Below, in pieces: positions 58,498-60,426 of a stretch of DNA of 64,000 nt. The position numbers and the translations under genes were made by a program. The notes under the pieces are model-generated. The model was not told the origin of the DNA and ran no database searches. It was given only the letters and a program-made list of their open reading frames with translations. The stretch comes from Rhodovulum adriaticum (GTDB lineage: Bacteria; Pseudomonadota; Alphaproteobacteria; Rhodobacterales; Rhodobacteraceae). Positions within the stretch are counted from its first letter, which is position 1, and every line of letters begins with the position of its first letter. Where the stretch lies: the NCBI RefSeq assembly GCF_004345735.1, contig NZ_SLXL01000001.1:319876-383875 (forward strand), in the 5' to 3' direction.

Positions 58498-59025
58498 ATG
58501 AGCACACGACCGATCCTGATCCACCCCGACCCGCGCCTGAACACGGCCGCCGACCCCGTTGCCGAGATCGGCGACGAGATGCAGCGGCTGGCCGAAGACA
58601 TGCTGGAAACCATGTATCGCGCGCCGGGCATCGGGCTGGCCGCGCCGCAGATCGGCATCCTGCAACGGCTGATCGTGCTGGACTGCGCCAAGGACGAGGG
58701 ATCCCCGCCCAGCCCGATCACCATGTTCAACCCGCAGGTCGTCTGGCAATCGGACGATCTGAACATCCACGAAGAGGGGTGCCTGTCGATCCCCGAAACC
58801 TTTGCCGAGGTGACCCGCCCGGCCGAGGTGGTGGTGCAATGGACCGACCCCTCGGGCGATCCGAAAGAGGATCGCTTTTCCGGGCTGTGGGCGACCTGCG
58901 TCCAGCACGAGATCGACCACCTGAACGGCAAGCTGTTCATCGACTATCTCAAGCCGCTCAAGCGCCAGCTCATCACCCGCAAGATGAAGAAACTCAAGCG
59001 CGAGCGGTCCCGGGCCGCCGGATGA
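58498..59025 (+). CDS. def: peptide deformylase
   Basis: 175 residues from ATG at 58498 (MSTRPILIHPDPRLNTAADPV). The three metal-site motifs are intact: GIGLAAPQIG (motif 1), EEGCLSIP with Cys95 (motif 2), and QHEIDHLNG with His137, Glu138 and His141 (motif 3). It removes the formyl group from nascent N-formyl-Met. It is immediately followed by a paralogue and fmt, which adds the formyl group, forming a def-paralogue-fmt cluster. Basic C-terminal tail ([15 protein letters not shown]). Confidence 0.97.
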   Translation: MSTRPILIHPDPRLNTAADPVAEIGDEMQRLAEDMLETMYRAPGIGLAAPQIGILQRLIVLDCAKDEGSPPSPITMFNPQVVWQSDDLNIHEEGCLSIPETFAEVTRPAEVVVQWTDPSGDPKEDRFSGLWATCVQHEIDHLNGKLFIDYLKPLKRQLITRKMKKLKRERSRAAG

Positions 59026-59525
59026 CCGCCCGCCCGATCCTGCAATGGCCCGACCCGCGGCTGAAGGCCGAGGCCCAGCCGGTCACGGCCATCACGGATG
59101 AAATCCGCGCCATCTGGGACGACATGATCGACACGATGGAGGCCATGCCGGGCCAGGGTGTCGGGCTGGCAGCCAACCAGATCGGCGTGCTGCAACGGCT
59201 GGCCGTGGTGGATTGTTCCGAGGAACGCGGCCAGGCGGTGCGCATGGCCAACCCGGAAATCCTGCACGCCTCGGACAAGCTGCGCAGCCATACAGAGGCC
59301 AGCCCCTGCCTGCCCGGCGTCTGGGCATCGGTGAAACGCCCCCGCGCGGTCACGGTGCGGTTCCTGAACGCGGCCGGAGAGGTCGAAGAGCGGGACTTCG
59401 TCCTGCTCTGGGCGACCTCGGTGCAGCACCAGATCGACCATCTGAACGGCAAGATGTATTTCGACAACCTGTCGCGCCTGAAACGCGAGCGGCTGCTAAA
59501 AAAGTTCGAGAAGCGGAGGCGCTGA
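59022..59525 (+). CDS. peptide deformylase paralogue lacking the catalytic glutamate
   Basis: 167 residues from ATG at 59022, overlapping the upstream stop by four bases (ATGA). The fold is retained: [40 protein letters not shown] (motif 1). Motif 2 is EASPCLPGV (Cys96 kept, EG-CLS changed to SP-CLP), and motif 3 is QHQIDHLNG: His136 and His140 kept, the catalytic Glu replaced by Gln137 (codon CAG). In E. coli the matching Glu133 is needed for activity, so this protein is probably inactive as a deformylase, or uses a changed mechanism. Length and context are those of a deliberate paralogue, not a decaying copy: the frame is intact. Confidence 0.93.
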
Positions 59526-59526
59526 G

Positions 59527-60426
59527 ATGCGTGTGGTCTTTATGGGCACGCCCGATTTTTCCGTGCCCGTTCTGGACGCGCTGGTGGACGCCGGGCACGA
59601 CATCGCCTGCGTCTATTGCCAGCCGCCCCGCCCCGCGGGCCGCGGCAAGAAGGACCGCCCGACCCCGGTGCATGCGCGGGCCGCGACCTTGGGCCTGCCT
59701 GTCCGCCATCCCCTGTCCCTGAAAGGGGCCGAGGAGCAGGCCGCCTTTGCCGCGCTGAACGCCGATGTGGCGGTCGTGGTCGCCTATGGCCTGATCCTGC
59801 CGCAGCCGGTGCTGGATGCGCCCACCCATGGCTGCCTGAACATCCACGCCTCGCTGTTGCCGCGCTGGCGGGGCGCGGCGCCGATCCACCGGGCGATCAT
59901 GGCGGGCGACGCGGAAACCGGCATCTGCATCATGCAGATGGAGGCCGGGCTGGACACCGGCCCCGTCCTGCTGCGCGAGGCCACGCAAATCGGTGCCGAG
60001 GAAACCACCGGCGAATTGCACGACTGCCTGTCGGCCATGGGCGCGCGGCTGATCGTGCAGGCGCTGGACCAGTTGCCCGATCTGACACCCGAGACACAGC
60101 CCGAGGATGGCGTGACCTACGCCGCCAAGATCGACAAGGCCGAGGCCCGGGTCGACTGGACCCGCCCCGCCGAAGCGGTCGCGCGCCACATCAACGGCCT
60201 GTCGCCCTTTCCGGGCGCGTGGTGCGATGTGGCCGGCGAGCGGCTAAAGCTGTTGCAGGCCCGCGCGGTGCCCGGCACGGGCACACCGGGCCAGGTGCTG
60301 GACGGGCTGACCGTGGCCTGCGGCGGCGGCGCGGTTCAGGTGTTGCAGGCCCAACGCCAGGGCAAGCGTGCGATGGCCGCCGACGACATCCTGCGCGGGC
60401 TGGACCTGCCCGACCGGCTGTCGTGA
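59527..60426 (+). CDS. fmt: methionyl-tRNA formyltransferase
   Basis: 299 residues. It formylates Met-tRNAfMet with 10-formyl-THF. The N-terminal domain has [33 protein letters not shown] and [29 protein letters not shown] (catalytic Asn/His and [11 protein letters not shown] loop). The C-terminal OB domain (from about residue 205, [21 protein letters not shown]) binds the tRNA. It starts two bases after the stop of the deformylase paralogue. Its stop overlaps the next start as GTGA. Confidence 0.97.

Follow-up and report, generated by a model that had tools for sequence, protein, structure and literature searches.

The question raised by this locus is why an intact gene for a deformylase-like protein with a dead-looking active site is kept between the gene for an active peptide deformylase (PDF) and the gene for methionyl-tRNA formyltransferase. 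We addressed this question in a 64,000-nucleotide stretch of Rhodovulum adriaticum DNA (the window) and in related genomes.

A deformylase paralogue coupled to def1 and fmt

Three genes follow one another on the forward strand of the window. The first, def1 (58498 to 59025), encodes a canonical group A PDF with the motifs EGCLS and QHEIDH. The second, defB (59022 to 59525), encodes a 167-residue paralogue of deformylase fold that reads SPCLP and QHQIDH at the corresponding places, and the third, fmt (59527 to 60426), encodes the methionyl-tRNA formyltransferase. An earlier note on this DNA had described the paralogue as intact and coupled on both sides, and both points hold. The defB reading frame is open over its full length, the def1 stop and the defB start overlap in an ATGA (59022 to 59025, forward strand), and a single base separates the defB stop from the fmt ATG. 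The overlap suggests that DefB is coexpressed with active Def1. Each of the three products matched the Pfam and NCBIfam models of its own family. A search of the genome found only two deformylase matches, def1 and defB; defX, a third tandem deformylase paralogue of related loci, is absent. Among the best 80 matches listed, the closest named relative was Rhodovulum bhavnagarense, whose DefB is 86% identical.

DefB belongs to the PDF family both by profile score and by predicted structure. It scored 139.8 bits against PF01327 (cut-off, 22.8) and 129.1 against TIGR00079 (cut-off, 103.95) and fell under the cut-offs of NF001159 (121.3 versus 125) and NF009484 (153.5 versus 190). An AlphaFold2 model made with 48 aligned rows (pLDDT, 94.6; pTM, 0.90) has a C-terminal helix at residues 152 to 166, and the ten best PDB matches of this model in Foldseek were all deformylases, including those of Escherichia coli, Pseudomonas aeruginosa, and Burkholderia (TM, 0.88 to 0.92). 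DefB is thus predicted to keep the PDF fold. As an equivalog model, TIGR00079 would name the window DefB "peptide deformylase" despite its changed catalytic residues, which bears on annotation and on how accessory deformylases are counted in studies of antibiotic targets.

Replacement of the catalytic Glu and of the Cys metal ligand

We aligned 131 distinct DefB sequences with 136 Def1, 67 DefX, and 20 outgroup alphaproteobacterial PDF sequences and with E. coli PDF, which provides the family numbering (as in 1bs4). In the motif III stretch (59424 to 59449), DefB has HQIDH versus HEIDH in Def1. Gln137 (59430 to 59432) stands in place of the catalytic Glu133, as the earlier note had claimed, and His136 and His140 of DefB (E. 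coli His132 and His136) are retained. The same note had counted the Cys ligand among the residues kept along with the two His, and this part of the claim was a register error. In the gapless pairing of Def1 EGCLSIPE over DefB EASPCLPG, the changed motif II (59301 to 59309) has Ser94 (59301 to 59303) at the metal ligand position, Cys90, followed by Pro95 at Leu91 and Cys96 at Ser92. The Cys that had seemed to be kept therefore lies two residues past the ligand site, where most orthologues have Asn. The motif II register was stable across the whole alignment. Ser133 (59418 to 59420) falls at E. coli Cys129.

All 131 distinct DefB sequences carry Cys90Ser, Leu91Pro, Cys129Ser, and Glu133Gln, and all have His132 and His136. 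Position 92 is Asn in 103 sequences and Cys in 28, the window protein being among the latter. With Ser at position 90 throughout, no DefB has the full set of enzyme metal ligands, the Cys of EGCxS and two His. Def1 is canonical at positions 90, 91, 92, and 133 in 136/136 sequences, as are 20/20 outgroup PDFs, and position 129 is Cys in 135/136 Def1 sequences and 13/20 outgroup PDFs. Motif I (GxGxAAxQ) is kept in DefB, with G43, G45, L46, and Q50 in 99 to 100% of sequences and A47 and A48 in 87 to 92%, Gly being the residue otherwise. Just before motif I, a two-residue Gly-Gln insertion (59151 to 59156 in the window, residues 44 and 45) occurs in 20 of 132 DefB rows and in no Def1 row; 16 of these 20 rows have Cys, not Asn, in motif II.

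Of the 150 DefB sequences that we collected, 23 were fetched by the Gln motif and so necessarily carry Gln. An unbiased count uses the 127 distinct sequences fetched without the motif; a few motif-fetched loci (L145 to L149) are also within the 131 alignment rows. All 127 have Gln and none has the catalytic Glu of HExxH, and all have Ser-Pro in motif II (next residue Asn in 99 and Cys in 28). The earlier note had named Glu in most relatives as an outcome that would refute it, and the count is the reverse. With the motif-fetched rows added, Gln and Ser-Pro are found in 150/150 (Asn in 122 and Cys in 28). This fixation, together with the family-wide scan described below, rules out a one-off mutation or a sequencing error, and the conservation supports the earlier suggestion that an inactive-looking deformylase-like protein is maintained in the operon. 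The Gln motif matched once in the window and in none of 100 shuffles, so it is not a chance match. Over the 150 sequences, the Gln133 codon is CAG in 144 and CAA in 6, and the Ser90 codon is AGY in 124 and TCN in 26, two sets that no single synonymous step joins.

In PDF, Glu133 acts as the general base, and the backbone NH of Leu91 has an oxyanion role. DefB probably lacks deformylase activity because it has lost both this general base and a required metal ligand: Cys90 is needed for activity, and the C90S mutant of the Salmonella enzyme fails (PMC7683392). Both Cys90 and Leu91 are placed at the active site by PMC4964514 and PMC3101196. A change of motif alone is no proof of inactivity, since the type 3 PDFs of Trypanosoma brucei are active despite altered motifs, according to PMC12690207. 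We also count against our reading that both metal-binding His are invariant in DefB although the Cys ligand is gone.

Distribution and gene order

Our sample of the order consisted of 244 genomes, all Rhodobacteraceae. A DefB match (query P0002, E value of 6.7e-48 or better) was found in 237 of them, and the best E value in the remaining 7 was 6.9e-42 or worse. The exact DNA pattern for QHQxDHxxG matched 236/244 genomes, with the motif read inside the DefB reading frame for part of these 236, and the 237th genome (G227) has SVLHQIDH, as read by eye. Eleven genomes had two pattern matches, the second of which is probably due to chance. The seven genomes without defB (G123, G268, G290, G169, G285, G200, and G289) have Def1 only, except that G289 also has DefX. 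In a separate sample from the same genus or family, 33 of 37 genomes had a DefB match; G029 and G032 have one canonical PDF each, and no match was found in G023 and G034, which are 82% and 91% complete. DefB is missing from some genomes and so is not strictly required.

Outside the family, an exact motif scan, which variants could escape, found no true HQxxH DefB in 380 other alphaproteobacterial genomes; on inspection by eye, the reading frames behind the five raw class-wide hits were judged not to encode deformylases, and the hits were put down to chance. The exact pattern also found none in the 371 nonfamily genomes of a phylum sample that partly overlaps the 380. None of the five outside hits from that scan lies in a PDF reading frame, and a 12-bit match at L215 was judged spurious.

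When the nine sampled genomes that lack DefB are placed on a Def1 tree, their distribution requires five changes, at least two of them forced by starred branches. We therefore rejected a single ancestral absence of DefB and consider more than one loss or absence likely; the deep placement in this tree is weak.

Gene order was counted in 123 distinct loci (up to L141), taking only the def and fmt genes that share the strand of defB and with starts estimated by script. The order def1-defB-fmt was found in 59/123 loci and def1-defX-defB-fmt in 52/123 (fmt-bearing total, 111/123). Another 8 loci have def1-defX-defB with no fmt identified in the locus, and 4 have other orders (2 without a def1 seen, 1 with defX-defB-fmt, and 1 without fmt). 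The operon of def, paralogue, and fmt that was first described for the window is thus a real layout but only one of two common ones, defX lying between def1 and defB in about half of the loci. Close spacing is widespread: in 85/121 distinct loci, defB and the def gene before it share four bases, and in 117/121, the two lie within 20 nucleotides of each other; fmt starts no more than 20 nucleotides after defB in 71/114 loci and no more than 150 in 105/114.

Origin and selection

We built a tree of 102 sampled rows from which the trait columns had been removed, using a quick method with SH-aLRT support and no bootstrap. DefB forms one clade (support, 100) on a long stem (0.74), and DefX forms another (support, 96). 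The two clades share a larger group with Rhodobacteraceae Def1, which is separated with a support of 94 from E. coli PDF and the 20 outgroup PDFs; branching inside this group is weakly supported. The median dN/dS within the genus of the window was 0.19 for Def1 (15 sequences), 0.29 for DefB (15 sequences), and 0.36 for DefX (11 sequences). DefB is under purifying selection.

Two mobile sources were considered and rejected. The sole plasmid match above 60% identity was a 1.58-Mb replicon of Pseudorhodobacter turbinis with the same three def genes, which argues against plasmid carriage. All 113 phage records with matches were less than 60% identical, and the viral HQxxH proteins are of other kinds, which argues against a phage origin.

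Of the 33 phage loci found, 22 were read. One marine phage PDF (L277 to L279; the same protein at L232, L254, and L255) has DefB-like changes, with Ser at the place of Cys90, HQxxH, and a basic C-terminal helix, but its sequence is clearly different from that of DefB. It is one protein in three contigs, and Cys and Glu are both present in 19 of the 21 further phage relatives that were read, so the DefB-like change is sporadic in phage. A second kind of viral PDF, 144 to 154 residues long, keeps the Cys and has HQxxH (L222, L230, L233, L239, L243 [partial], L264, L267, and L270). Changed motifs also occur in other phage PDFs (EETSLTYPG and HEMDY in L293, QQQLDF in L284, and HELDF in both L287 and L288). 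Deformylases that look dead are thus a recurrent finding among phages.

The C-terminal helix and its ribosome contacts

E. coli PDF contacts uL22 through L149, K150, R153, and K157 and contacts 23S rRNA through K160 and R163 (PMC12690207), and it is active in vitro and in vivo after removal of the C-terminal helix (PMC5591237). The C-terminal helix of the window DefB (59475 to 59519, residues 152 to 166) is basic and has Lys154, Lys161, and Lys164 at the positions of K150, K157, and K160. These three positions are all basic in 132/132 DefB rows (the window protein counted twice), 137/137 Def1 rows, 16/20 outgroup PDFs, and 0/67 DefX rows. DefB therefore has the K150, K157, and K160 part of the E. 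coli-type contacts and lacks a consistent R153 and R163 part: position 163 is Arg or Lys in all Def1 rows and in 33% of DefB rows, and position 153 is hydrophobic in all Def1 rows and Arg in 20% of DefB rows. Within the DefB helix, no row lacks a basic residue at position 150, 151, 157, or 160, and neighbors such as 152, 153, and 161 are variable. Since a helix that is dispensable for activity stays basic in a dead-looking enzyme, its conservation suggests that DefB docks on the ribosome. A ribosome-associated factor had been one of the roles offered in the earlier note. The uniformly basic contact positions favor that option.

Cys90 is present in 66/67 DefX sequences and Glu133 in 65/67. Motif I of DefX contains an Arg (GRGLAAPQ), and a basic C-terminal helix is missing (for example, L005:602-1495 and L276:2516-3001). 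From the counts of contact and catalytic residues, DefB has kept the docking features and lost the cutting residues, and DefX shows the reverse. Two DefX copies have a decayed motif III (QHGLDL at L078:3444-3995 and QQVMDH at L108:3474-4001).

Possible roles of DefB

Drawing on the substitutions and their fixation, the single clade, the predicted fold, the contact residues, and the gene order, we propose that DefB is a conserved pseudoenzyme of PDF fold that would dock on the ribosome and is coupled to the active Def1, and we give this reading a probability of about 0.5. The catalytic Glu, one metal ligand, and a residue of an active-site loop would have been replaced on the stem of one Rhodobacteraceae clade, and these replacements have stayed fixed since then. 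Made in a coupled manner with active Def1, DefB would most likely dock through its basic C-terminal helix at the uL22/23S tunnel-exit site that Def1 also uses. Once docked, it would either bind the N-formyl-Met starts of chains or skip them, leaving them uncut in both cases, and would in this way control the frequency with which a chain is reached by the active deformylase and by methionine aminopeptidase. E. coli PDF binds and leaves the ribosome fast, the ribosome rather than the chain dominates its binding, and methionine aminopeptidase competes for its site (PMC8712518), so a dead docker would be expected either to hold formyl-Met ends or to act as a competitor or pacemaker of Def1 and methionine aminopeptidase.

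A more tentative extension, which we regard as rather doubtful, is that a housekeeping enzyme has been split, with catalysis and docking in Def1, catalysis only in DefX, and docking only in DefB. DefB might then be a nonenzymatic factor for nascent chains, a "formyl-Met reader" that sits where the tunnel opens, holding or shielding N-formyl-Met and thereby determining the set of proteins that retain their formyl group. Retained formyl-Met in light-harvesting proteins is a possible link to DefB. Our literature search found nothing usable on that link, and the one paper that it listed for transposon essentiality was not relevant.

The main rival, suggested by analogy, is that DefB may be a noncatalytic partner that stabilizes or tunes Def1 (or Fmt). 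There is a precedent in the inactive dihydroorotase chain needed by P. aeruginosa aspartate transcarbamoylase (PMC7053772), and the conserved order and close coupling of the genes would suit cotranslational assembly. However, Def1 must work alone in the genomes without DefB, and a partner role does not require the Def1-like helix contacts that DefB has kept. We consider this role unlikely.

A reworked enzyme, with a Ser/His/His/Gln site that holds another metal or none and acts on another substrate, such as an N-acyl peptide, is less probable again. The catalytic Glu and the Cys ligand are lost, the Pro at Leu91 has no backbone NH, and Ser at position 90 is the very change that leaves the Salmonella enzyme nonfunctional (PMC7683392). 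Yet the invariant His pair, the motif I Gln, and the new Ser exceed the needs of a merely dead site, and PMC12690207 raises the possibility that altered-motif accessory PDFs function in special conditions.

We think it improbable that DefB is a sponge that works away from the ribosome and soaks up free formyl-Met peptides or deformylase inhibitors. In favor of this role, motif I is retained along with much of the pocket, but so are the ribosome-contact residues, and a loss of the metal would be expected to weaken the binding of hydroxamate-type inhibitors. A functionless protein, whether a decaying duplicate or the product of a one-off mutation, is scarcely credible: the substitutions are those expected to abolish activity, but their fixation in 127/127 orthologues, the synonymous codon variation at the changed residues, the dN/dS of 0.29, the open frames, and the conserved coupling all argue against decay.

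Comparison with known deformylases

The proposed ribosome-docking pseudoenzyme is close in form to canonical PDF (E. coli Def; PF01327 and TIGR00079). DefB is like it in fold (TM of 0.90 to 0.92 for those of the ten best matches that are E. coli entries), in motif I, in both motif III His, in the basic contacts of the C-terminal helix, and in having fmt as a neighbor, but differs from it by Cys90Ser, Leu91Pro, Ser92Asn/Cys, Cys129Ser, and Glu133Gln. No title or abstract describing the DefB group was found in our literature search, most subscription papers being beyond its reach.

Inactive accessory type 3 PDFs have been described in Staphylococcus aureus and Streptococcus pneumoniae (Margolis et al., as cited in PMC12690207). 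Compared by description only, they are like DefB in being altered-motif accessory paralogues beside an active PDF. DefB adds to this the Gln in HExxH, a clade of its own with Rhodobacteraceae Def1, near-universal presence in the family, and a place in the def-fmt operon. Its changes are in motifs II and III, with motif I kept; in PMC12690207, type 3 PDFs are described by substitutions in motifs I and II.

The same source (PMC12690207; MBE 2025) reports PDF clusters in 98.1% of Rhodobacterales reference species, with three genes in 62.5%, and calls their rationale elusive. These are the same gene clusters as def1-(defX)-defB. The available text of that source describes altered motifs in accessory PDFs in general; we did not find in it the fixed catalytic loss of DefB or the contact loss of DefX. 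With DefX lacking the docking residues and DefB lacking the catalytic ones, the published puzzle of these clusters becomes a testable question about N-terminal processing at the ribosome.
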